The translations under genes were made by a program, and so were the position numbers. A model generated the notes under the pieces. The model was given only the letters and a program-made list of their open reading frames with translations. It ran no database searches and was not told where the DNA came from. 49,180 bases of DNA. It comes from Gammaproteobacteria bacterium. GTDB lineage: Bacteria; Pseudomonadota; Gammaproteobacteria; Pseudomonadales; Azotimanducaceae. Numbering within the stretch: the stretch's first letter is position 1; each line of letters starts with the position of its first letter. Positions 24,984 to 39,578 of the stretch are shown here, piece by piece. Location: assembly GCA_002726655.1 (NCBI GenBank), contig PBRP01000096.1, positions 1 to 49,180 on the forward strand. Direction: 5' to 3'.

Positions 24984-26027
24984 CTAAGGTTTGCTCCGAT
25001 CACTGGAGTTTACAATCTGTCGGAAGAGATCTGCTGATTTTCTGATAAACCTGCTTTTAACTGAAGACCGCTCCGGAAGAGTAAATGGTTTGCCGTTGCT
25101 AACGGTATTGTCAAGGTGTAACTCAGAGGTGTTGAGGTCTGCTTTTATAAAGCTCACGTCTCCCTGGCCAAAATCAGTGTTGTTAAAGTGAATGCCGCAG
25201 TTGTGGAAATTTGCTTCACCAAAGTCAATATTCCCGCTGCCAAAGACTGCGTCCATAAAGGAGACGACTGATTCCGAAAACTCCCCACTGTGGAACGAAA
25301 CATTGCCGTCAGCAAAATTTACCGCACCGAAGGCTACAACACCGTTGCTAAACAGGGCTCTATCAAAGTAAATATTTCCGTTGCCAAACTGTGCTTTATT
25401 GAAAAAAGTATTGCCGTCACCAAAATGTGTATTGGAAAAATCCACATTGCCGTCACCAAATCGAGTTTCAACAAAGTTAACGCTGCCCTTGCCGAACTTC
25501 GCACCGGCCAAATCGAAGCTGCCGTCACCAAAATGAACATCCGAGAAATCTACATCACCATAACCGAACTGAGCATTGGTAAGAGATACGGTGCCCCTGC
25601 CAAATCTGGCGCCGCCAAAATCAACATCACCATCGCTAAAGTGACAACCATCAAAGCGGACATCACCGTTGCCAAATCTAGCCTCCATAAAGGAAAGACC
25701 GGCACCCTCAAATCGAGTTCCACTGAAATCTACGGTTCCTTCACCAAACTCAGCTTTGTCAAATAGAACAGGCCCTTGTGCAAAATGGGTGTTACAAAAC
25801 GAGACATCCGCTGCATCAAACAGGGTTCCCCGAAATGAGGCCGGTGCCGGGAATATGTAGTTATCAAAGCTGGCAGAACGATTCGGGTCACTGTTGAAAT
25901 CCAGGCCGCTAAAATCAATACGGGAATATTGATGGATAGTTTCATTCCAGGTGTCCTTGCCCTTATCAAAGAGTGCGAGAGCGTTTCGACCACGAAGTGC
26001 TTTGGCCTTGTCATTCGGTTGGCTCAA
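24984..26027 (-). CDS. Dodecapeptide-repeat right-handed beta-helix protein (pentapeptide-repeat-like)
   Basis: The 347-residue protein has a charged N-terminal 45 residues, then about 18 near-perfect 12-residue repeats up to about residue 310 with consensus F-G-x-G-x-V-x-F-x-x-A-x. Examples are FGDGNVDFSNTH, FGDGNTFFNKAQ and FGNGNIYFDRAL. Each unit can be read as one pentapeptide plus one seven-residue coil, so a quadrilateral beta-helix like that of pentapeptide-repeat proteins is expected. No signal peptide, enzyme domain or anchor is seen. Pentapeptide proteins include gyrase-protecting Qnr-like forms, but the repeat here differs and no function is claimed. The unusual opposite-strand open frame is a repeat artefact. 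Confidence 0.8.
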   Translation of the reverse strand: MSQPNDKAKALRGRNALALFDKGKDTWNETIHQYSRIDFSGLDFNSDPNRSASFDNYIFPAPASFRGTLFDAADVSFCNTHFAQGPVLFDKAEFGEGTVDFSGTRFEGAGLSFMEARFGNGDVRFDGCHFSDGDVDFGGARFGRGTVSLTNAQFGYGDVDFSDVHFGDGSFDLAGAKFGKGSVNFVETRFGDGNVDFSNTHFGDGNTFFNKAQFGNGNIYFDRALFSNGVVAFGAVNFADGNVSFHSGEFSESVVSFMDAVFGSGNIDFGEANFHNCGIHFNNTDFGQGDVSFIKADLNTSELHLDNTVSNGKPFTLPERSSVKSRFIRKSADLFRQIVNSSDRSKP

Positions 26028-26160
26028 GCTAGTTCTTGTCCGGATTTGGATATCGAGCGGGCTAGTTCCTTCATAAGCGATTGTTTTATATACCTAACGT
26101 TATTGTTGTGCTGTGAATTTTTGCCAAGATCGCCTATTTTCGAACAGGAACAAGCTAGGT
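26028..26160. repeat. Short dispersed repeat, copy 2
   Basis: Bases 26042-26085 match 8867-8909 in the same orientation (GGATTTGGATATCGAGCGGG then CTAGTTCCTT). The element is bounded by roughly inverted ends, AAGCTAGTTCTTGTCCG on the left and CGAACAGGAACAAGCTAGG on the right (about 26028 and 26141). It separates the beta-helix gene from the respiratory cluster. Confidence 0.55.
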
Positions 26161-26526
26161 CCCGATTTTTATCAGTTGCGGCTCTTTCCCCTCGGCAAGT
26201 ACTTCTTTAGTCCCTTGTGTACTGCTGTTACCTTCGTATAGATATCGCTCTTCCAGGATCACCTCACCTTGCTTGTAGCGTTTAAACAGAATTACCCTGC
26301 TGCTCGAGTCATAGCGGGCTTCATAATAGGTGTAGAACTGGTATACCTCCTCGATATTCTTGTCCTCCGCCAGATCCTTGATCCCGTCAATTTGCGTATA
26401 GTCATCAGAGAAGTAGGACATGCCTTCCTTGACTATTTCCGAGCGAGAATAGGCAGGCGCATAAACAGACAGTAGGGTCAGGATCGCCCGGGGTGCGAGA
26501 GTTAGCCGTTGTATTGTCGAAATCAT
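26155..26526 (-). CDS. Small secreted hypothetical protein
   Basis: The 123-residue product has an N-terminal hydrophobic segment (LAPRAILTLLSVYAPAYS) that looks like a cleavable signal peptide. The mature part is charged and Tyr-rich (EVYQFYTYYEARYD, then VILFKRYKQGEVILEERY) and has no cysteine or heme motif. I do not recognise a family. It follows the cupredoxin gene by 18 bases and is probably the last gene of the respiratory transcript. A periplasmic location is inferred. Confidence 0.6.
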   Translation of the reverse strand: MISTIQRLTLAPRAILTLLSVYAPAYSRSEIVKEGMSYFSDDYTQIDGIKDLAEDKNIEEVYQFYTYYEARYDSSSRVILFKRYKQGEVILEERYLYEGNSSTQGTKEVLAEGKEPQLIKIGT

Positions 26527-26544
26527 TTCATAAGAGCCTTATGG

Positions 26545-26976
26545 TTATTCCACCGTTATCGTGCCTTTCATATCGTAGTCTTCGTGGATCTTGCAGACAT
26601 AGTGAAATGTTCCCTTCTCTTTGAAAACCAGTGAGTATTCCTTGGTTTTCCTTACTTTTACAGGTGCTGTTCGGGTTGGCGCCGTATCGAATTCAATTTC
26701 GAAAGCTATGTTGTGATTGGTGTCATCATCGTTTAACCAGGTCACAACATCATCCGCCTGTATTGTCAGTGAAGCAGGGTTGAACTCCCAGCCCTCCATG
26801 CCGATTCTATGTTCCTGCGCAAGGCTGGCATCGGAAAATGAAATGGCACCAAATAGCAGCAGCATCGAAACAGAGGCGTATTGTCGGAATGCTGCTCGTT
26901 TTCCCCGGTATGTGGTGGGAGCCTCAGAGATTGTTGAAACGATTTTTGAAACCATGTTTCTTTCAGGACTGATCAC
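26545..26976 (-). CDS. Cupredoxin-domain (plastocyanin/azurin-like) periplasmic protein
   Basis: This 143-residue protein has an N-terminal region with a hydrophobic stretch (SVSMLLLFGAISFSDASLAQ) followed by a cupredoxin fold. Type 1 copper ligands are visible: His in DTNHNIAF, then Cys, His and Met in YVCKIHEDYDMKG. Such proteins shuttle single electrons in the periplasm and can donate to cytochrome cd1. It lies downstream of the molybdoenzyme/cytochrome genes. The listed start gives a long leader before the signal; ATG at about 26955 (MVSKIV) is an alternative. Confidence 0.85.
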   Translation of the reverse strand: MISPERNMVSKIVSTISEAPTTYRGKRAAFRQYASVSMLLLFGAISFSDASLAQEHRIGMEGWEFNPASLTIQADDVVTWLNDDDTNHNIAFEIEFDTAPTRTAPVKVRKTKEYSLVFKEKGTFHYVCKIHEDYDMKGTITVE

Positions 26977-27060
26977 GGGTGATCCAGATTCTCACTTTCA
27001 CTGAATCTTACACGACTTGATGAGTACCCGAAATCATAACAGGAACCTGACTGTTCGATA

Positions 27061-27881
27061 CTAGGAACCGGGCAGGAATAGGTTGGGGGGTGTTGACCGA
27101 TTGTAGCCAATAAAGTGTTTCTGCACGATTTCCTGGCCCTGAGGTGAAAGTACCCAATCGATAAAATTCTTAACCTCGCCCTTGGGTTCTCCCTTGGTCA
27201 ATAGGTAAATCGGGCGGGTAATAGGATAGGTCTGGTTCTGGATACTGCAAACCTCGCCATCGATGCTCAGGATTGTAACTTCCTCGTTTCCCTGAATCAG
27301 GGCAACACTGATTTGCCCTATTCCCCCCTCTTCGCTAGCTACCTTAGAAATGATATCAATATCGGGGGATATCTTCTTTGCTTTCCATAGTCCTTGTGAC
27401 GAAGCACCGCCTCCCTAAAAACCTTGTAGGTCCCGGAGGTTTCTTTTGGGATGAATACCTTGATCGATCTGTCGGACCCACCGAGTTCAGCCCAGTTCGT
27501 AATATCCCCAGAGAAGATTCCGCTGAGGTGACAGGAAGTCATTTCGTTGAGGAGGTTGTTCTTGTTGACGATTGCCGCGATGGCATCGTAGCCAATAAGT
27601 GTGGCAACCACACCCTTCTCAAGGTAACGCTCATTAACTGGCCTGGCGACACCACCCAGGTCACATCTGCCTCGATAGGAACATATTTCGCCACCACTGC
27701 TCTCTGGAAGTGTATCGATGGTGAAGGTTGATGATGTGTAAGCTTCCTGTGCATCTTGCATAAACTTCCCGACGGTTGAGGAGCCTGTGTAGGTGAGGGT
27801 CCCAGCCTGTGCCTTTAGTGCAAAGATGCATAAAAGGCATGAAAGCAATATGGACACCAGATTCCGTCGGTGAAAATGCAT
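27061..27881 (-). pseudogene. PstS-like periplasmic solute-binding protein, frameshifted
   Basis: From ATG at 27881 (MHFHRRNLVSILL...) the gene encodes a signal peptide and a PBP-like domain (GTLTYTGSSTVGKFMQDAQ, ESSGGEICSYRGRCDLGGVA, FSGDITNWAELGGSDRSIKV). After ETSGTYKVFREAVL the frame changes. The visible frame runs into a short wrong tail, while the family sequence resumes in another frame as GGASSQGLWKAKKISPDI, VASEEGGIGQISVAL, then VKNFIDWVLSPQGQEIVQKH, ending at TAG 27061-27063. The net lesion is a loss of one base or a gain of two near 27400-27420. An upstream ATG at 27917 is possible but less likely. The ligand is unknown; a respiratory setting suggests an oxyanion. Confidence 0.8.
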
Positions 27882-27921
27882 CTTGTCTGTCTCCCGGACT
27901 TTCCCTAGTAAAAACATTCAG

Positions 27922-28623
27922 CTATTTGTGGTTTTCATCCCAATCTACATCGCCGTGAACCAGGTTGTAGTGGCAATGGATGCAGGTTTTCTCGCTGCTC
28001 TTCTGCATGGATTTATGTTGCTTGATATCATTGAACCATTCGCTCTCGGTCTTATGACATACCGTACATTTCTCACTCTTCTCTTCGATCATGGTTTCCC
28101 TGACATTTTTTGCCAGCTCGACTCGCAGTTCTTCCCATGCAGGGATATCCCGCATTGAGTTGGATATGGCATGAAAAGGACTCTCGCCAACACCACCTCT
28201 ATTGACATAGAAAAACTTCCACTTAACGACTTGTGCAAGGCTATGCGGATTGTGGCAGCCAACACAACCAGGGCGGACGCCGAAATCACTGTCATAGTGT
28301 GGTGAATCGAGATACTCGTTGTAAGGGTAGGCATGACATTCACCACAGCCAATGGTGACATTGAAATGCCCCGGATCGAACTCCCTAGTAGGGTTGAAAT
28401 CTTCAATTGATGTACTCAAGTCACCCAGGGGTGCATATTCCTTTTCATTGACGAAGATCTCATGGCACACGGTACAACCACTAATTCGAGTAAATCGAGT
28501 ATCGCTCCAGAAGAGGACCATGATCATAAAAATAACCAGCAGAACAAACACACCGCCTGCTCCTACCATAAGCCATTGATTGGCTGTCAGCTTTCTCAAT
28601 CTATCGATACTCCATCCGTACAT
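27922..28623 (-). CDS. Membrane-anchored pentaheme cytochrome c, NapC/NirT-like
   Basis: The 233-residue protein starts with one transmembrane helix (about residues 17-40, LMVGAGGVFVLLVIFMIM) and then has five CxxCH heme sites in the periplasm: CTVCH, CGECH, CVGCH, CTVCH and CIHCH. NapC/NirT/NrfH proteins normally show four; they oxidise quinol and pass electrons to periplasmic reductases. The gene follows the molybdoenzyme by 11 bases, so the two proteins probably form a quinol-linked pair. The fifth site is unusual and shifts its class toward TorC-like forms, though the TorC C-terminal domain is absent. Confidence 0.88.
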   Translation of the reverse strand: MYGWSIDRLRKLTANQWLMVGAGGVFVLLVIFMIMVLFWSDTRFTRISGCTVCHEIFVNEKEYAPLGDLSTSIEDFNPTREFDPGHFNVTIGCGECHAYPYNEYLDSPHYDSDFGVRPGCVGCHNPHSLAQVVKWKFFYVNRGGVGESPFHAISNSMRDIPAWEELRVELAKNVRETMIEEKSEKCTVCHKTESEWFNDIKQHKSMQKSSEKTCIHCHYNLVHGDVDWDENHK

Positions 28624-28634
28624 CAGTCAGCCTC

Positions 28635-31040
28635 TTAGGTCCCAGAGCCAGTAGCAAACATGCTTTTATAGATAGCCATGTGCTTTTCGTTACTTGTCTG
28701 AATATCCCCGTAATTGTCACCGGGCTCGGCGGCTGAGACGGTTACCACTGTATCGTTCCAGGCTTGCACACCACTGTCAGTGTCGATTGAAATTGGGATG
28801 ATATCGTTTGGGTTTACGCCACTGTCACGCCACCAGAGGTTGTGATCAATATCGTCGTCATGCTGGCTGGCTTTCGCAAAGATGGCCTTCGCTTCCGGGT
28901 TAGCCAGTGATACGCGGCCATAGGATGACCTGCCAACCGATGTCGAAAGACCGACTGCCTGCGGATGAATGCCCTGGGTTAACCAGGCACGTGTAACCAG
29001 GTATCCAGCATCACTTTTAACCCTGACGAGATCACCATCGGAAATCCCTTTCACTGCTGCCGTCTGGGCGTTGATCCACAGGGGATTCGAATGCCAGAGC
29101 TCGGCCAGGTATTTCAGGTTGGAGGTCATCGAAAGTGTATGGAAAGCAACCTTGAACGTGATGAGCACAAATTGATCGGGCTGCTCCTGCAGACGCACCT
29201 TGGCCAGACTTTCATTTTCCTTCCAGGAGGGAATAGAGATTTCAATTTTTCCCGAAGGTGTGTTGAAACCGTCTTTGCTGTAGGTCTGGTATTTCGCTTG
29301 GGCTGGTTTGCCTTTTTTCATCAACAGCCTTGTATTCGGATCGATCTTGCCGTAGTTGGGCCACACACCCTTCCTGCGCATTTTTTTGTATGCCTTGCGC
29401 AGTCCATCGGTCGCTTCGATCTGATTTTTGACCCACTCTCCCGTGTCGTTAAATTTCCAGAAGGGTTTCATGCCAAGCTGGCTGTGAGGATCCAACTGCT
29501 CAACAACCTTTTTCAAGACAAGTCTCACGTCCATGGGTGAACACCGGTGTTGTCCGGCGGGCATCGTCATACTGGCCCATGGAAGCAACGCGGTTGGACT
29601 ACTGCCGACATCATCGCGTTCAACAGCAACCACATCGGGTAGAATCAGATCGGCATAGTCTGCCGTCTCACTCATGAAGGGGCTGAAGTCAACGATATAG
29701 GGAACCAGCTTTTCATCCTGCAAGATCTCACTCCACATACTCGCGGCCGGAGATGCGTAGACGGGATTACTCATGTGATTGAACAGCACCTGTACATTGT
29801 GATCACCTTCTTTGAGTTCGAAGGGGAAGGCGTGATTCAGACGTCGGACCAGGCTGCCTTTCTGTACTGGTGCAGGTTGTGGTTGCGGAATATCGAATTG
29901 ACGTGGCAGGCAATATCCACCTTCGTTGTCGATATTCCCAGTAATAACCGCCAAAAGCAGGAATGCTGTTTCACTGGCGGTTCCGTTCTTGTGAAAGTTC
30001 ACGCCATTTTGGCTTATGATGGTGGCGGGCCTTGTCTTGGCAAATTCTCTGGCAATGCTAATAATTGTTTTAGCAGGTACACCACTGGCTTCTTCCGCTT
30101 GTTCCGGTGTAAAAGTGGACAAGCTTTTCGCCAGATCTTCCGCTTTGTGGTTGGTCCATTTATTGATGAAGTTGGTATCGGCGAGACCCTCTGACAGGAT
30201 GACATTGCTCATTGCCAGTGCCACGATGCTGTCACTGCCCGGAAAGACGGGAATCCATTCATTGCTTCGCCCGGCGGTGTTGGACAGCCGAACGTCGAAG
30301 GTCACGAGTTTCAGACGGTTGTTTACGACACCATCAGTTAGGCGTTGTGCCAGGGGTGGCGCGGTCTCAAATATATTGGCGCCAAAGTTCAGTACGTAAT
30401 GCGTGTTCTCGAGGTCCGGCAACAGAAAATCCACGCCGATGGCATTTTCGAGGGCGGTCTGTTTTGCCATATTGCTGATTGACGGAAAGCGGCTTCGAAT
30501 AACAGAACTGGAACCTATGGTATCCATGAACCGCAGGCTGCCGCCGTCTTTAAATGCACCTTCATTAAGGTAGACACTGTCCGGGCCATGGTCAGAGATG
30601 GCTCCACCTACTTTGCTGGCAACTTCTGCAATCGCCTCACCCCAGCTGATTTCCTGCCACTGGCCATCACCCCTTTTGCCAACCCGCTTAAGCGGTTGCA
30701 GAATTCTGTCCGGATCGGCAGCATTGAAAAACGATGCCAGGCCCTTTGAACACAACTTCCCTCTGGTTGCAATGTGATCCGGGATACCTTCCACCTTCTT
30801 AATGTCACCCTTTTCAAAGTAAGTGAATCCCCCATCGAAATAGGGGCACATAGTACAGAGAAAGACTTTCTTGTCTCGGGGCGCAAAAGTTCTGATCTGA
30901 TGGAAATCTTTGCCGCCCATCTCCAATTCCATCCCATTCAGGGCAATCGGGCAGGACGCCGCCGTTGTTACCACAACACTGGCTTTAAGAAACTCTCGCC
31001 GGTCCATTGCTAACGGCTTTATCTTGTTTTGATCTGACAT
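28635..31040 (-). CDS. Tat-exported molybdopterin oxidoreductase, DMSO reductase (CISM) family
   Basis: The 801-residue catalytic subunit has a twin-arginine signal (MDRREFLKAS, Arg14-Arg15) and the molybdopterin domains of the PsrA/PhsA/SoeA group, including RPATIISQNGVNFHKNGTAS and a C-terminal MoCo-binding domain ending in GDLVRVKSDAGYL and HNLWW. The expected 4Fe-4S motif C-x2-C-x3-C-x27-C reads Cys62, Cys65, Asp69, Cys97: the third ligand is Asp with canonical spacing. No Cys or SeCys is evident at the Mo position, where the sequence is RSRFPSISN. The gene lies between a broken ferredoxin subunit and the pentaheme cytochrome. Its electron acceptor or donor is not identifiable. Confidence 0.88.
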   Translation of the reverse strand: MSDQNKIKPLAMDRREFLKASVVVTTAASCPIALNGMELEMGGKDFHQIRTFAPRDKKVFLCTMCPYFDGGFTYFEKGDIKKVEGIPDHIATRGKLCSKGLASFFNAADPDRILQPLKRVGKRGDGQWQEISWGEAIAEVASKVGGAISDHGPDSVYLNEGAFKDGGSLRFMDTIGSSSVIRSRFPSISNMAKQTALENAIGVDFLLPDLENTHYVLNFGANIFETAPPLAQRLTDGVVNNRLKLVTFDVRLSNTAGRSNEWIPVFPGSDSIVALAMSNVILSEGLADTNFINKWTNHKAEDLAKSLSTFTPEQAEEASGVPAKTIISIAREFAKTRPATIISQNGVNFHKNGTASETAFLLLAVITGNIDNEGGYCLPRQFDIPQPQPAPVQKGSLVRRLNHAFPFELKEGDHNVQVLFNHMSNPVYASPAASMWSEILQDEKLVPYIVDFSPFMSETADYADLILPDVVAVERDDVGSSPTALLPWASMTMPAGQHRCSPMDVRLVLKKVVEQLDPHSQLGMKPFWKFNDTGEWVKNQIEATDGLRKAYKKMRRKGVWPNYGKIDPNTRLLMKKGKPAQAKYQTYSKDGFNTPSGKIEISIPSWKENESLAKVRLQEQPDQFVLITFKVAFHTLSMTSNLKYLAELWHSNPLWINAQTAAVKGISDGDLVRVKSDAGYLVTRAWLTQGIHPQAVGLSTSVGRSSYGRVSLANPEAKAIFAKASQHDDDIDHNLWWRDSGVNPNDIIPISIDTDSGVQAWNDTVVTVSAAEPGDNYGDIQTSNEKHMAIYKSMFATGSGT

Positions 31041-31077
31041 ACTTTCCTCAATAGGCTATGTCTGAAGAAATTAACTT

Positions 31078-31422
31078 CTAGTAGAACGTTTGCAGATACT
31101 GACCACCCATGACCCACCAGTTACGCACACAGACAGGGTAGTCGCAGTGATTACATAACCGGGGCATAAATATACGCCGGGTATTTGGATAACGGCCCTT
31201 GTCTGCAACCTTAACCCAGGTACGCCAAACTCCCAGAGCGACACCAAACTCTGCCTTACAGGCGACCACACAGGATTGGCAACCGATGCACCGCCTCAGG
31301 TCAATAACCATGGCATACCGTTTTTTGCCTGCAACTCCCTTGCTTCCTGGCGTTTGCAGACCATAGGCGCGTGGGCCACTGTGGGTATCGGTGACGTCCT
31401 TGACTTTAATTTGATCAGCCAT
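31078..31422 (-). pseudogene. DmsB/PsrB-like 4Fe-4S ferredoxin subunit, truncated (probable deletion fusion)
   Basis: The 114-residue frame begins like an intact electron-transfer subunit: Cys45-x2-Cys48-x2-Cys51-x3-Cys55 is one 4Fe-4S set, and LCNHCDYPVCVRN starts the second with Cys90, Cys93 and Cys98. The family then continues with a cysteine and two further clusters (about 100 more residues). Instead this reads NWWVMGGQYLQTFY and stops. The tail looks like the extreme C-terminus of a NrfD-type membrane anchor, so I infer a deletion of about 1 kb or more that joined the B subunit to the end of a lost anchor gene. It starts 33 bases after the cytochrome c gene. Confidence 0.75.
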
Positions 31423-31455
31423 AGCTACTGAGGTACTGCTCCTGAGAAGATGCTT

Positions 31456-31893
31456 TTAGTTGGCGAATTTGGCGTGCATGAAGCTAATAAGGTTCCAAAT
31501 TTCTTCTTCAGAGACATTGACGTCCGTACCGGGTCCGAACGCTTCCATTTCCGTGCCCTCGCTACCTTCTTTGATGATCCAGAACAGCTGTCCATCCGCT
31601 CTCTCTTCCATGTAACCTGCCACGGTAAAATCGGTCGGCTTGATTTCGATATCCTCGGCGGCAGAACCCTGGCCATCGCCATCGGTGCCGTGACACTTCT
31701 TGCATTTACGCTTGTAGAGTTTTCCTGCTGACTTGAGAAAATCATCATCCACGTCATCTGGATCATTCGGGTTTTCCATTGCCAGAAAATCTTCTGGTGC
31801 AGTCGCTGTTTGATGATCGCCCGCCGCAAAAACCGATGCTGAGAGCAGCATCAGCAGACTCGCAATTATAGAAATAATGCCTTTTGCATTCAT
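31456..31893 (-). CDS. Periplasmic monoheme cytochrome c
   Basis: The 145-residue product has a signal peptide (ISIIASLLMLLSASVFAAG) and one heme site, CKKCH near residue 64, in a class-I cytochrome c context (LYKRKCKKCHGTDGDGQG). A likely axial Met is in EMEAFGPG, and the C-terminal helix is EEEIWNLISFMHAKF. An acidic insert precedes the heme. It is the gene after nirS and may donate electrons to cytochrome cd1 (NirM/NirC-like role) or link nirS to the molybdoenzyme. ATG at 31893 has GAGGAATC upstream. Confidence 0.88.
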   Translation of the reverse strand: MNAKGIISIIASLLMLLSASVFAAGDHQTATAPEDFLAMENPNDPDDVDDDFLKSAGKLYKRKCKKCHGTDGDGQGSAAEDIEIKPTDFTVAGYMEERADGQLFWIIKEGSEGTEMEAFGPGTDVNVSEEEIWNLISFMHAKFAN

Positions 31894-31916
31894 TGTTGAT
31901 TCCTCTTCTGTGTGCC

Positions 31917-31964
31917 AAGAAAAAGGGATTGCAAGAACTCAATATTTAAGCTCCGGCAATCCCT
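31917..31964 (-). terminator. Factor-independent terminator/attenuator after nirS
   Basis: On the minus strand GGGATTGC (31963-31956) pairs with GCAATCCC (31932-31925) across a 23-base loop, and is followed by TTTTTCTT. It lies between the nirS stop and the cytochrome c gene. Partial read-through would set a higher level for nirS than for the downstream genes. The long loop weakens the call. Confidence 0.55.
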
Positions 31965-31996
31965 CTCTTGTTTCGAAAGGGCTAGCTACTAACCGG

Positions 31997-33606
31997 CTAG
32001 TAAATATCCTTCATCGTGTTGTAAACGTTGAATTTACCGGTTGGTGTGTGTAGACCCTTGATACGTGCTTTTTCTTTATGGGTTTTGTCATCCAGAATCA
32101 CGATCTCGCCTTCTTTGTCCCACAGGCTGATCCAGACTTCATCACCTTTCTTGTTGTACTCCATGTGTACAACCTTCTTCTTGAACTCAATTTCCTTTGC
32201 AGGAGCTTCTGGGTTCTTAATATCAAATATCGTCAGAACGTTGGACTTATTTTTGTTGATCGTGTTGTCGCAATAAACCCACCTGCTCTTGGGGTGTGTC
32301 TTGATGAACAGGGAGTTACCATCGAGTTCCCACTCTCTGACAACAGTCCAGGCCCACTTCTTCTTGGGGTCTGTGCTGATGATCGACACCAGACCTTCGC
32401 CAAGATGCACTGTGGCCCAAACTCTGCCGTACTTGGGATCTACCCAGTTAGCACCGCGGCCAGGATGTGGCTTTGTTCCGGTGACGATGTTTTTGACCAG
32501 CTTACGTTCAACCGTATCGATAACTGAAATGGTATCACGGGCATTGGCTGCAACCAGGAAGTAACGCTTGGTTGAGTCCCAACCGCCATCGTGCAGGAAC
32601 CGCTCAGCATTGATTTTGGTTTCAGTAATTGTGCCTTCGTCAAGCTTGCTGTAGTCAACGAGCAGTACAACGCCTGTTTCCTTCAGGTTGAGCACCCACT
32701 CTGGTGCATTATGAGAAGAAACAATTGACGCCACTCGAGATGAGAAGAAACAATTGACGCCACTCGAGGCTCGGGATGATACTCATTGGTATCGTAGGTA
32801 TAGCCACGGGTACCGACAATCTTGATTGGCTTCAAGGTATCCCCTTCCATGATGACATAGTGTGGTGGCCAGTAGTCACCAACGACCGCATACTTGTCCT
32901 CAAACCCCTTGAACTTGCTGGTATCAATAGATCTTGCGTCAATACCTGTTCTGACTTCAGCTACCAGATTGGGTGGCTCCGCCCACATGTCCATCATTGT
33001 TGCTTTGCCATCGCGGCCAATCGCAAACATGTAGCGGCCTGATGCAGATGTCCTGAGAATGTGTGTAGCAAATCCAGATGGAATGGTGGTAAGCACTTCC
33101 TTGGTGTCGCCATCAATGATGGAGATCTTGCCAACGTCACGAAGCACAACACCGAAATAGTTCAGCCAGTTCTTACCTTTAGGTGGCTTGGCTGGTCTAT
33201 CCTTGACCGGTACGTGCACTTTCCATGAAGCCATCATTTCTTTCATGCCCCATTCTGGAGGCATTGGTGGTTCGATCTGAACATATTTGGCCATCAACGC
33301 GGTTTCTTCGTGCGTCATGAAGCCGTCTCGTCCCCAGCCAGGCATACCACCATCGGTACCATCAAAGAGAACCTTGTCAAGTTTGGCAAGGGTCTTCTTC
33401 AATGTCTTCGCGGGGGTGATATTTGGGCCGGTTGCACCTTTTCTCAATGCACCATGACAATCGGAGCATCGATCAAAGTAGATGAATTGGGCTTTTTTGA
33501 AATCCTGTTCGGATAGGGTTGGTATGGGTTGAAGCGATGCTGCTCCAATGCTTCCTGCAAATACTGCAGCGCAAATTGCAAGCGCCACGTCCATGTATCT
33601 CTTCAT
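31997..33606 (-). pseudogene. nirS: Cytochrome cd1 nitrite reductase NirS, disrupted by a 29-bp tandem duplication
   Basis: The N-terminal part (start MKRYMDVALAICAAVFAG, signal peptide; heme c site CSDCH; GWGRDGF) and the C-terminal d1 propeller (ETGVVLLVDYSKLDEGT, KPHPGRGANWVDP, TPTGKFNVYNTMKDIY) lie in different frames. The expected d1-site histidines are in EYHPEPRVA and KPHPGRG, as in Pseudomonas NirS His327 and His369. The frames break exactly at a perfect direct repeat of 29 bases (32711-32739 and 32740-32768). Removing one copy restores a 526-residue protein. NirS reduces nitrite to nitric oxide in the periplasm. No heme d1 synthesis genes are in the window. Confidence 0.93.
32711..32768. 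repeat. Perfect 29-bp tandem duplication inside nirS
   Basis: The unit begins ATGAGAAGAAACAATTGACG and occurs twice with no mismatch and no spacer. Because 29 is not a multiple of three, the nirS frame is lost: the upstream part runs into a short wrong tail (SSHLEWRQLFLL) and the downstream half can only be read from an internal GTG at 32734. Confidence 0.97.
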
Positions 33607-33655
33607 AACACTTTCCTCGTCCTTGGGGATTAGTTAACAAACTAGAGTGCCGCGA

Positions 33656-33697
33656 ATTTTATGGAAAGCAGAATGGACTGTCACTGATCCAGATCAA
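33656..33697 (-). promoter_or_regulatory. FNR/DNR-type box and -10 element upstream of nirS
   Basis: On the minus strand TTGATCTGGATCAG (33697-33684) matches the FNR/ANR/DNR consensus TTGAT-N4-ATCAA with one mismatch at the last base. If it is centred at -41.5 the start site is 33649, and the hexamer at -12 to -7 (33661-33656) is TAAAAT, one change from TATAAT. A 43-base leader with GAGGA then leads to the nirS ATG. The geometry is that of a class II anaerobic promoter. Binding by FNR or a nitric-oxide-sensing DNR cannot be separated by eye. Confidence 0.82.
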
Positions 33698-33787: not shown

Positions 33788-34915
33788 CTAGGTGAAGCCA
33801 TAGCGTGGATAAGGTCCGACAAGACTGGCAGCAAGGTGGCCATAGGTGACGATGCCGTTTTCTTGCACACGAATGGGTCCTTCACCCATTTTGTAGGGAA
33901 GTGTGTCGCCATCCAGGTCCCTGACAACACCAGGATCTGAAACGTCCCATACTTCACCTTCTGTGTGCAGCAGTCCCCTGTAGACGCCATGACCTTTACC
34001 GTCATGGAAACCACCATAGCCATAACCGGGTCCGACGTAGGCAAAGGGTTCCTTCACTGGCGAAATGTTGATCTCACGCTTTCTGCCTTCCTCATCGGTG
34101 ATGAGATAAGTTCCCGACTTTACGCGTCGCGTGCCGCTGTAAAATTGCAGTTCGTGCTCCACGCTTGTGAGTCTTAGTTCACGTGGCTGATCTCCGGACA
34201 GGTCCATCAGAGAACTGTCCAGTGGATGCCACATTTCTCCACCCTCATTCAACAGGAACCAGCATGTATAGTCATTGCCTTGCCACAGCATCCAGTTAAA
34301 AAGACCGCCCATTGCCGGTGGTGGCGGTTCTGATGCGGTTGTCGGCTCGAAACCGCCCGCGTGCTGATAGCGCAAACCCCAGGAATGGTCGCGGACTGCT
34401 GACCAGTTTGTTTTGCTGGCCTCGTAGCGTTTCCCGTTGACGCTCACCCAGCCCGCAGCAGAACCTGCCTGGTCAAAGCGGGTATAGTCCTGCACCAGAC
34501 GACCGTCGCGACGATGATAGTAGTGGCTTTCTTCATGGGGGGGCGCCGCTGCCTCGAACTCGAGTTCGAATGCATGTCCAAAGTCATTTTCTTCAAGCCG
34601 TATCCTATGGCGTTTTAATGGTTCAAGCAGTTCAAAGTGCAGAGGCCCTGCACCCATTCGATCCATGTCCGGGCGCAATTGTCGAGACACTCGCAAGTTG
34701 TGTTGCCTGCCCGCTGTGGTGTCCAGAACACATCCGGCACCATCGAGTACATTGCTGTTTTTGTAGATACCCATGGTGGTGACAACCATTACCTCCCCGT
34801 TCTCAGCAAATATTGAAAACCAGTAGCGATCATAGAAACGGTGATCACTTGTATATACATGATCAAAGGTGGTTGCCGTCTGATGGTGCAGCGTGTCGTC
34901 CAGGGCGGATATCAT
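33788..34915 (-). CDS. CrtC/AttH-like lipocalin-fold protein (DUF7064 type)
   Basis: The 375-residue protein is soluble, with no signal peptide, and rich in aromatic beta strands. The central VRDHSWGLRYQHAGG is the typical motif of the hydroxyneurosporene synthase/AttH group, in which two lipocalin-like domains lie in tandem; later segments are NWMLWQGNDYTCWFLLN and YGHLAASLVGPYPRYGFT. A second family member lies at 41.3-42.3 kb with the same R-D-H-S-W motif. Some family members hydrate isoprenoids, but the function of these is unknown. The gene is divergent from xsc. Confidence 0.7.
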   Translation of the reverse strand: MISALDDTLHHQTATTFDHVYTSDHRFYDRYWFSIFAENGEVMVVTTMGIYKNSNVLDGAGCVLDTTAGRQHNLRVSRQLRPDMDRMGAGPLHFELLEPLKRHRIRLEENDFGHAFELEFEAAAPPHEESHYYHRRDGRLVQDYTRFDQAGSAAGWVSVNGKRYEASKTNWSAVRDHSWGLRYQHAGGFEPTTASEPPPPAMGGLFNWMLWQGNDYTCWFLLNEGGEMWHPLDSSLMDLSGDQPRELRLTSVEHELQFYSGTRRVKSGTYLITDEEGRKREINISPVKEPFAYVGPGYGYGGFHDGKGHGVYRGLLHTEGEVWDVSDPGVVRDLDGDTLPYKMGEGPIRVQENGIVTYGHLAASLVGPYPRYGFT

Positions 34916-37666: not shown

Positions 37667-37771
37667 ATACAGGAGAGATTTTTCCACTGCGGTCACTTGG
37701 TGACCTCCGGTCGAGATGACGCTTTCTTTGCCCAGCGTGTTTGCCCAGGACAGTTGGTCGAATTGATCATG

Positions 37772-37951
37772 TCTGGAGCGACCCCGTCTGAGGCGACCCC
37801 GTCTGAAGCGACCCCGTCTGAGGCGACCCCGTCTGAGGCGACCCCGTCTGAGGCGACCCCGTCTGAAGCGACCTTGTCTGAGGCGACCCCGTCTGAAGCG
37901 ACCCTGTCTGAGGCGACCCCGTCTGAAGCGACCCTGTCTGAGGCTACCCCG
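37772..37951. repeat. Minisatellite of twelve 15-bp units
   Basis: Twelve uninterrupted copies of TCTGAGGCGACCCCG occur with changes at a few fixed positions (AGG/AAG, CCG/CTG/TTG), and a partial thirteenth at 37952-37958. The last units alternate and so form a 30-bp higher-order repeat. The unit length keeps both strands open: S-E-A-T-P on plus, V-A-S-D-G/R on minus. No start, ribosome binding site or domain supports either as a gene. It lies between the methyltransferase and an acyl-CoA ligase. Confidence 0.95.
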
Positions 37952-38027
37952 TCTGAAGTCAAGCATTGACTTGAGGACCGGAATCGCCAAACAATAGCCC
38001 CCTCGAAAAAGAATCAGGACACGACCA

Positions 38028-39578
38028 ATGGATGATTTACTGACTACCCTGGCACAGGAGCAGGGAGACAAGCTGGCTGTGGTCGATGACCGACCCGATG
38101 GGACACTGATCAAGTGGACCTTTTCGGACCTGGAAAGCAAGGCTAACCGCCTGGGCAGGGCCATGCAGAAACTCGGCGCAGTGCCAAAAACCAAAATAGT
38201 CTGGTGTGGTCAGAATTCAAGCTGGATTGTCGCCATGATGCATGCAGCCCGAAAAATCGGGTGTGTCGCCGTTCCCCTTAACTACCGCCTGGCACCGGAA
38301 GAGGCTGCCTATGTGGTGGATAATTCAGATGCGGAAATTGTCTATGCAGACACTGCTTATGCAGCAATGTTTGCGTCAATTCGTGGTGAACTGCCGAGTG
38401 TCAGGGAGTATGTCATTTTTGATGGGCCAGTCTCCGCAAATATGCACCTGCTGGAGGACCTGATTGCCGATGAACCTGATGGTCCAATCTCAGCGGAATT
38501 TGAGGAATCTGCAGGCACCATGATCTACACATCTGGAACGACCGGGAAACCCAAGGGTGCGGTCAAATATGGTGATGGTGACGCCGAAACCATGGAAAAG
38601 ATGCTGGCGGAGTTTGGATACAAGCCTGATGATGTTTATCTAACCACTGGTCCCCTGTATCACTCCGGACCTGGAGGTTTTATGGCTATCTCCCATACCC
38701 TGGGCAACACAGTAATTCTGCAGCGAAAATGGGATGCACTTGACTGGTTAAGGTTGTTTGACAAGTACAGTGTCACCTCGACCTTTTCATCACCAACGAC
38801 GATTCGCATGGTCTGTAACCTGCCTGACAACGAATTCAAGAAGTATGACGTCAGCACCATGCGCGTCATGATTGCTAACGCCGCTCCCTGGTCGTACGCC
38901 CTTAAGTTGAGCTACCTGGAGAAATTTCCTGCCGAGTCGTTGTTTGAAGTTTATGGCAGCACAGAATTGGGCGTGAATTGTATTCTGCGTCCGGAAGATC
39001 AAGTCGCCAAGAAAGGTTCCTGTGGCAAGCCCTCGCCGGGTGTGGTTATAACGCTCTATGATGATGAAGGTAACGTGGTGACTGAGCCGCATACACCCGG
39101 TGAGCTCTATGCTCGCAGTAAGAATATGTATTCCACTTACTACAATGCCGAGGATAAGTACAAGGAAGACACGCGTGGTGATAGTCACACGGTCGGTGAT
39201 ATAGCCTATTTTGATGAGGAAGGTTACTACTATATATGTGATAGAAAGAAGGACATGATCATTTCTGGTGGCATGAATGTCTATCCTGCTGAAGTAGAGG
39301 ATGCGCTCGAACACCATGATAAAATTCAGGATGTCGCGGTATTTGGTATACCCAGTGAAGAATGGGGGGAGATGATCCATGCGGTAGTGGTGGTCAAACC
39401 CGGTTCAGAACTGAGCGAGGAGGATATTGAACACTTCTCCCGCGAGCATCTCGCGAGTTATAAGATTCCAAGATCCATATCATTTGCTGATGATATCCCA
39501 AGAACAGGGTCAGGAAAGATTCTCAAACGGGATCTGCGTGCCCCTTTCTGGGCGGGGCACGAAACCCAGGTCCAGTAA
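38028..39578 (+). CDS. AMP-dependent acyl-CoA synthetase/ligase
   Basis: The 516-residue enzyme belongs to the ANL superfamily: YTSGTTGKPKG (about residues 167-177) is the P-loop, YGSTELGVN a central motif, TVGDIAYFDEEGYYYICDR the adenylate-binding stretch, and GSGKILKRDLR carries the C-terminal lysine. It activates a carboxylic acid as acyl-AMP and then acyl-CoA. Nearby enoyl-CoA hydratase and a second ligase suggest fatty or isoprenoid acid use. ATG at 38028 lies 76 bases after the minisatellite. Substrate unknown. Confidence 0.88.
   Translation: MDDLLTTLAQEQGDKLAVVDDRPDGTLIKWTFSDLESKANRLGRAMQKLGAVPKTKIVWCGQNSSWIVAMMHAARKIGCVAVPLNYRLAPEEAAYVVDNSDAEIVYADTAYAAMFASIRGELPSVREYVIFDGPVSANMHLLEDLIADEPDGPISAEFEESAGTMIYTSGTTGKPKGAVKYGDGDAETMEKMLAEFGYKPDDVYLTTGPLYHSGPGGFMAISHTLGNTVILQRKWDALDWLRLFDKYSVTSTFSSPTTIRMVCNLPDNEFKKYDVSTMRVMIANAAPWSYALKLSYLEKFPAESLFEVYGSTELGVNCILRPEDQVAKKGSCGKPSPGVVITLYDDEGNVVTEPHTPGELYARSKNMYSTYYNAEDKYKEDTRGDSHTVGDIAYFDEEGYYYICDRKKDMIISGGMNVYPAEVEDALEHHDKIQDVAVFGIPSEEWGEMIHAVVVVKPGSELSEEDIEHFSREHLASYKIPRSISFADDIPRTGSGKILKRDLRAPFWAGHETQVQ

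Follow-up and report, generated by a model that had tools for sequence, protein, structure and literature searches.

A conserved gene module linking a distinct cytochrome cd1 nitrite reductase clade to a CISM-like complex without the molybdenum-ligand cysteine, and its broken copy in a gammaproteobacterium

We analysed a stretch of 49,180 nucleotides from a Gammaproteobacteria bacterium (assembly GCA_002726655.1, contig PBRP01000096.1, positions 1 to 49,180; hereafter the window), in which nirS, the gene for cytochrome cd1 nitrite reductase, heads an operon that also encodes a monoheme cytochrome c (cytc), a subunit resembling the catalytic subunit of complex iron-sulfur molybdoenzymes (CISM; subunit A) and a pentaheme cytochrome (cyt5). 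In related genomes the same genes are accompanied by an Fe-S subunit (B) and an NrfD-like membrane subunit (C). We favour, with moderate confidence, the view that the intact module is built along the lines of Qrc or alternative complex III (ACIII) and supplies electrons specifically to a distinct NirS clade, A having been retired from catalysis, and that the copy in the window is a recent wreck of such a module.

The association is not peculiar to the window. A search for related loci (L numbers below; G numbers denote genomes, C numbers contigs) returned eight with A subunits 63-80% identical to that of the window. Over ten genomes, the window's included (the genome of L003, G789, lay outside the NirS search), nirS and A share a contig in six (the window's, G059, G060, G061, G158 and G278); in the remaining four, the linkage would span a contig gap in one, the genes are unlinked in two, and nirS was not found in one. 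The module occurs in two gene orders. In the first, nirS, cytc, B, C, A and cyt5 follow one another, as in L004 (G060), in L005 (G061), where a porin-like gene lies ahead of nirS, and in L002 (G059), where the contig ends inside nirS and cytc occurs twice. The closest relative, G058, carries porin-nirS-cytc-B on one contig and, on a second contig that starts inside C, the series C-A-cyt5-pstS-cupredoxin-small protein-pentapeptide protein, which would adjoin nirS across the gap. The second order, B-C-A-cyt5 and then nirS-cytc, is found in G158 and, within the reach of a contig that begins inside A, in G278. The original prediction had proposed a search for conserved neighbourhoods as a check; this search recovers the same module in several genomes and not a chance arrangement, with nirS-cytc and the A complex sharing a contig in five genomes besides the window's. 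We therefore reject the possibility that this arrangement exists in the window alone.

In a panel of 369 genomes of the class, counting the window's, five have module-clade NirS (74-83% identity to the L004 protein; the next best match has 56%) and three have module A at E values up to 1e-120, all of them within those five; nine more genomes match with more distant CISMs. At the same threshold, an order panel of 390 genomes yields the window's genome and three more distant Cys-bearing relatives or kin. Among loci with visible downstream DNA, only the window and L001 (G058) have the PstS-like and cupredoxin genes after the module, and these two genes are hence accessory. At the other end of the module, a gene for an alginate-export-type porin stands directly before nirS at L066 3554-4798 (by Pfam) and L005 1-921, and in the window this position is held by an unrelated gene (33788-34915).

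Judged by its sequence, the L004 protein is a true NirS: phmmer matches it to solved chains of the Pseudomonas aeruginosa type with an E value of 4e-166. The heme motif and PHPGRGAN are kept in the module NirS rows that cover them, as is LHDGGWD, and the first residue of the FLHDGGW motif is changed from F to A in L086 and L087. We take FLHDGGW and PHPGRGAN to be the d1-site His motifs of NirS. In a tree from which L040 was left out as a duplicate of L068, the module NirS proteins form a separate clade (support 98/100). The window's genome (G000) has a second, intact NirS on another contig (G000:C52; L062 8615-10339), which belongs to the canonical clade. Searches of this genome with PF02239 and for NirJ gave no NirF, NirN or NirJ over the cut-off. 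NirJ exceeds its cut-off in eight of the 11 module-bearing genomes and falls below it in G000, G060 and G061; two of these three have an intact nirS, and incomplete assemblies are a simple explanation for the missing gene. The original prediction had also remarked that heme d1 synthesis and nor genes are absent from the cluster, and none was seen in the ten operon open reading frames (ORFs) and ten other window proteins scanned.

The case for a probable change in the role of A begins with its alignment with relatives. In a tree that excludes L073 and L075 (their longest ORF is in the wrong frame), the ten module A rows form one clade (100/100), which adjoins a degenerate copy in G121 and then five Cys-bearing rows, including a gene on a plasmid of Azoarcus KH32C. 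The Cys that ligates molybdenum is present in none of these ten rows (counted without the partial A of L087): the column holds Ser in the window (S189), L001, L003, L008 and L086, Gly in L002, L004, L005 and L007, and Asn in L006. The Cys is present in each of the five rows that lie nearest once the module and G121 are set aside (L074, L083, L089, L091 and L094), and in the next five as well (L077-L081). As a yardstick we used 13 rows picked for having the Cys, so that its presence in them is by construction. Of the 103 columns that 12 or more of these rows conserve, all ten module rows keep 68, including the three Fe-S Cys, and all ten have lost nine, namely the ligand Cys together with R130, R162, H183, S402, R492, Q493, H743 and I755. 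The Fe-S pattern itself, C-x2-C-x3-D-x27-C (C62, C65, D69 and C97), is invariant in nine of nine aligned rows. The Cys-ligated relatives L089, L091, L094, L074, L083, L078, L080 and L081 likewise have Asp where the third Fe-S Cys would be, and on these alignments the unusual Asp-containing ligand pattern extends beyond the nirS-linked clade.

Curated families and the gene neighbourhood were also compared. The best NCBIfam model for the window's A is PhsA, at 286 bits (246 for L004) against a cut-off of 694, and the QrcB equivalog model gives 150 bits for the window and 170 for L004 against a cut-off of 440. The enzyme, which the original prediction had suggested placing in a family tree, falls in no well-known clade, as A reaches no curated family cut-off. 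In the three Cys-bearing relatives checked, a TorD-type gene comes directly after A. A TorD model built from those three was run on every ORF of 80 aa or more in the module loci and detected no such gene in the module operons; the scan reached 445 bp after A in L003, 695 bp in L005 and 720 bp before A in L001, and in L087 there is no sequence before A. This pattern fits a protein that kept its fold and Fe-S cluster but lost catalysis, and A is probably no longer catalytic. Of the earlier suggestion that the cluster couples a second oxyanion to nitrite through a molybdoenzyme, the conserved module stands; a second-oxyanion reductase is not supported, because A sits next to Cys-ligated CISMs but is without the molybdenum-binding Cys and has eight further positions changed.

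Subunit B, nearest to TtrB, has 16 Cys in all eight intact module copies, enough for four clusters. Subunit C belongs to the NrfD family (Pfam, 5e-29 for the L004 protein) and has been lost from the window. The cyt5 product carries five CxxCH motifs and belongs to the NapC/NirT family; a phmmer search of the PDB with the L004 pentaheme cytochrome gave no match. In G121 (L092 2922-8279), one protein joins a pentaheme domain to two cytochrome c domains, and related B and C subunits are encoded next to it; the A subunit there has lost the molybdenum ligand and the Fe-S Cys too, and NirJ was not found in that genome. L006 and L007, which have no nirS alongside, likewise carry a cytc homologue after the pentaheme gene. 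Together, the fusion and these neighbours indicate a hand-over from the pentaheme cytochrome to cytochrome c.

From these components we infer the following route. C would take electrons from quinol, and the four-cluster B and the CISM-like A, its own Fe-S ligands kept, would hand them to the pentaheme cytochrome. They would then pass to the monoheme cytochrome c and on to NirS, which would reduce nitrite to nitric oxide (NO). The complex would work like ACIII or Qrc, beside cytochrome bc1.

Several observations weigh against this interpretation. To begin with, the pairing of nirS with the A complex is not obligatory, because G275 and G376 have only the nirS-cytc pair, with no module A at the threshold used, and because B-C-A-cyt5 occurs without an adjacent nirS in L006, L007 and L008; the genomes G062 and G064 encode module-clade NirS at another site, and G063 yielded none. 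Of the ten module-bearing genomes searched, nine have cytochrome c1 of bc1 (G062 gave no match), and so has G121. We therefore rejected the complex as a replacement for bc1, and it would instead work beside it. Nor does a missing Cys ligand prove inactivity. Dimethyl sulfoxide (DMSO) and trimethylamine N-oxide (TMAO) reductases ligate molybdenum by Ser, and arsenite oxidase does so without a protein ligand. The Cys is likewise missing at this column in L010, L011, L012, L020, L023, L092, DmsA and TorA, and two Ser that are invariant in module A (S183 and S187, nine of nine rows) could in principle ligate the metal. A retains its Fe-S ligands and much of its fold, whereas QrcB is described as having no redox cofactor (PMC13059093). 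Structure prediction of A from nine rows reached a mean pLDDT (predicted local distance difference test score) of 31 and was not used.

A further point of this kind is the single match to the TorD family, in L004 (G060), about 9.4 kb before A. This gene directly follows a different molybdoenzyme operon, which encodes a 931-aa CISM protein, an Fe-S protein and a tetraheme protein. We rejected it as a candidate for serving module A: it sits with that separate operon, and four minus-strand genes come before the next genes ahead of nirS. The finding leaves our assessment unchanged because the gene sits with another molybdoenzyme. On the same contig (L126 2256-12168; G060:C152), two molybdoenzyme operons, this one among them, lie upstream of the intact nirS module, encoding 850-aa and 931-aa CISM proteins, Fe-S partners, a tetraheme protein and the TorD-family gene. 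A search with a TtrA reference had no match in 114 genomes, nor in the controls, and is hence uninformative.

These points bear most directly on the alternative that A is still an active molybdoenzyme with unusual ligation, by Ser or without a protein ligand, which reduces an oxyanion or N-oxide in a process coupled to nitrite reduction. Such activity would account for the twin-arginine motif, the retained Fe-S ligands and 68 of 103 conserved columns, and the two invariant Ser, and it gains from the existence of relatives with the Cys ligand and from a TorD gene in the wider neighbourhood in G060. It sits less easily with the change of the ligand Cys and eight other conserved positions in ten of ten rows, where the ligand column varies among Ser, Gly and Asn, with the failure to find a TorD gene within the operons, or with a related copy in G121 that has lost its Fe-S Cys as well. 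We consider continued activity unlikely.

Another alternative reverses the flow, as in the Qrc of sulfate reducers: periplasmic cytochromes would feed the quinone pool, and nirS would merely be a co-regulated neighbour. In its favour, Qrc, which has a cofactor-free CISM subunit, is reported to reduce menaquinone (PMC6303296 and PMC13059093). Hexaheme cytochromes also adjoin the complex in L006 and L007. These proteins belong to the Cytochrome_C7 family and lie after the complex (L006 13865-19347, L007 7565-8731) in loci where nirS is not adjacent; they are possibly another electron outlet. However, NirS acts as an electron sink, both gene orders keep nirS-cytc together with the complex, and NapC/NirT-type cytochromes usually draw electrons from quinol. 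Reverse flow is, in our estimation, quite improbable, and we keep to a supply line that would run from quinol towards nitrite.

The window's operon is encoded by the minus strand and extends, in the ORF list, from 33606 to about 24984. Along it, Pfam matches run from Cytochrom_D1 (on two overlapping ORFs) through cytochrome c, 4Fe-4S, Molybdopterin, Cytochrom_NNT (NapC/NirT), PBP_like_2 and Copper-bind to a small protein without a match and Pentapeptide_3. The original prediction read this gene order correctly, from nirS, the monoheme cytochrome c, an Fe-S protein and A to the pentaheme NapC/NirT cytochrome, the PstS-like protein, the cupredoxin and the small secreted-looking protein, after which comes the gene for a pentapeptide-repeat protein; it overlooked that the copy is broken. 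The features are as follows.

33684..33697, minus strand: FNR-like site TTGATCTGGATCAG, one mismatch; begins 91 bp before nirS
31997..33606, minus strand: nirS (cytochrome cd1 nitrite reductase), broken; Cytochrom_D1 on both pieces
32683-33606, minus strand: nirS piece 1, heme c and start of the d1 domain (ORF list, Pfam)
31997-32734, minus strand: nirS piece 2, rest of the d1 domain, overlapping piece 1 (ORF list, Pfam)
31456..31893, minus strand: monoheme cytochrome c, intact; partner of module-type nirS (Pfam, relatives)
31078..31422, minus strand: scar that joins Fe-S subunit B to the final residues of NrfD-like subunit C (relatives)
28635..31040, minus strand: CISM-like subunit A, 801 aa, twin-arginine motif seen by eye (Pfam, alignments)
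27922..28623, minus strand: pentaheme cytochrome of the NapC/NirT family, apparently anchored in the membrane at its N-terminus (Pfam)
27339..27917, minus strand: PstS-like (PBP_like_2) periplasmic binding protein, frameshifted (Pfam, comparison with L001)
26545..26976, minus strand: cupredoxin, plastocyanin/azurin family (Pfam; homologue in L001)
26155..26526, minus strand: small secreted-looking protein (no match in Pfam or NCBIfam)
24984..26027, minus strand: pentapeptide-repeat protein, after the operon (Pfam)

Three genes carry lesions. First, an exact 29-bp tandem duplication (32711-32768; two copies, 100% match) shifts the frame of nirS, so that the gene, whose presence had been noted correctly but not its damage, is split into two overlapping ORFs; intact full-length relatives encode about 526-541 aa. 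Second, what had been called a ferredoxin subunit is a fusion scar of 114 aa with seven Cys, ending in WWVMGGQYLQTFY, which is the C-terminus of the NrfD-like subunit in relatives. The points that meet in the scar are separated by 1481 bp in L004 and by 1485 bp in L086; about 1.5 kb has thus gone, and with it the latter half of B and almost all of C. Because this deletion left only the scar, the membrane subunit was overlooked in the earlier reading. Third, the PstS-like ORF ends at 192 aa, compared with 275 aa in its L001 relative, and DNA similarity to the L001 copy continues to about 27101. The small secreted-looking protein has a homologue in L002, which the corresponding L001 protein also resembles.

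Could these lesions be errors of assembly, with the operon intact in the organism? The assembly is 91% complete and in 161 contigs, of which the window is one, and a duplication as exact as the 29-bp one in nirS could have arisen as a k-mer artefact. A second contig, G000:C47 (L030, 1-6400), matches window 34187-29697 over 4491 bases at 99.93% identity and has the same nirS duplication; it belongs to the same assembly and hence offers no independent check. C47 departs from the operon at an insertion sequence, breaking off within A into a transposase gene (rve domain; presumably IS3-like), followed by a rho-like and hemB-like region, and represents a strain variant, a rearrangement or a misassembly. 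That exit at an insertion sequence counts against assembly error, as do three different kinds of lesion in one operon whose flanking genes align along most of their length with those of the genus-mate G002, an agreement that shows the damage to be concentrated in the operon.

G002 is informative in another respect. It is syntenic with window 13198-48633, at about 80-99% protein identity, except for the operon and the pentapeptide gene, and given this synteny we judged misbinning of the window contig unlikely. Between its nitroreductase gene and its match to the window's 33788 gene, only about 97 C-terminal residues of the pentapeptide protein are left; this remnant matches window 25014-25280, and the match to the 33788 gene comes shortly after. 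On this alignment, G002 bears a deletion scar that has removed nearly the whole operon, which likewise speaks against assembly error in the window. In the four genus-mates G001-G004, matches to A never exceed 31% identity. Within the window, the surviving operon genes have ratios of nonsynonymous to synonymous change (pN/pS) of 0.08-0.46 relative to G058, a rough guide as synonymous sites are saturated, and by these values the damage looks recent. We conclude that the decay is probably real and that the operon is probably no longer functional in the window's organism; we consider it very unlikely that the lesions are assembly errors. Elsewhere in the window, a 15/30-bp tandem repeat array (GCGACCCCGTCTGAG) occupies 37771-37958, just ahead of an acyl-CoA ligase-like gene at 38028.

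Regulation of the module can be addressed through its upstream sequences. The FNR box of the original prediction is present upstream of nirS, but taken alone it says little: the window holds five FNR-like sites where 2.7 are expected, and 15 of 100 shuffles had as many. Across 16 upstream stretches of 350 bp each, five (those of the window's nirS, of B in L086 and L008, and of nirS in L068 and L119) contain a site that departs from TTGATN4ATCAA by one mismatch at most, against a random expectation of about 1% per stretch. Three of the five read TTGAT-N4-GTCAA, which we take to resemble the NO-responsive DNR box. No site was found in the other 11 stretches, including those of L004, L005 and L066.

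NirS is usually thought to draw its electrons via cytochrome bc1 and small cytochromes or cupredoxins. If our interpretation is correct, the module would provide an NrfD-based, possibly energy-conserving alternative supply line for NirS in uncultured bacteria, some of them marine or from vents, and A would offer a testable case of a molybdoenzyme becoming a scaffold. There are also consequences for annotation: loci of this kind should not be labelled polysulfide, thiosulfate or tetrathionate reductases without caution, and the nirS of this window should not count as a working denitrification gene.

Full-text searches, whose coverage omits most subscription papers, turned up no description that we recognised as this module, and parts of it recall several known systems. 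A complete denitrification nir cluster contains heme d1 synthesis genes, which were not seen among the window proteins scanned. On a plasmid of Azospirillum brasilense Sp 7, a NirS-like cytochrome d1 protein, a NapC/NirT cytochrome and an azurin-family protein are encoded together, with no CISM, Fe-S or NrfD subunits within the 7.6 kb shown. Compared with PsrABC, PhsABC, TtrABC and ArrABC, A is nearest to PhsA (NCBIfam) and to the thiosulfate reductase 2vpw (PDB), B to TtrB, and C shares the NrfD family; the module differs in that A lies far below every curated cut-off shown and has no molybdenum-ligand Cys, in its added pentaheme cytochrome and in the lack of a TorD gene in its operons.

The closest parallels are with Qrc and ACIII. 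Part of ActB, the Fe-S subunit of ACIII, is CISM-like. PMC8076601 lists for ACIII (ActABCDEF) a pentaheme ActA, a monoheme ActE, the Fe-S protein ActB and an NrfD-like quinol subunit ActC, with quinol:cytochrome c/HiPIP (high-potential iron-sulfur protein) activity, and the module shares pentaheme, monoheme, Fe-S and NrfD-like subunits with this inventory. It differs in having separate genes for the CISM-like and Fe-S parts that are joined in the single ActB, a pentaheme cytochrome of the NapC/NirT family, and NirS as its partner; no ActD, ActF or second NrfD gene was recognised between nirS and cyt5 in L002, L004 and L005, where no profile search was made. Qrc (QrcABCD), as described in PMC6303296 and PMC13059093, combines the NrfD-like QrcD, the four-cluster QrcC, a multiheme cytochrome and a non-catalytic CISM-like subunit, and each of these has a likely counterpart in the module: an NrfD-like subunit with a four-cluster Fe-S partner, a multiheme cytochrome and a CISM-like subunit. 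However, module A keeps its Fe-S ligands, whereas QrcB is without a redox cofactor in that account (PMC13059093); the module cytochrome has five hemes and is of the NapC/NirT type, whereas QrcA has six; and the expected direction of electron flow is the opposite. Set beside the QrcB and ActB cases, A-B-C and the pentaheme cytochrome may form a quinol:cytochrome c oxidoreductase that gives denitrifiers a bc1-independent route from quinol to nitrite through this clade of NirS, a proposal that we advance tentatively.

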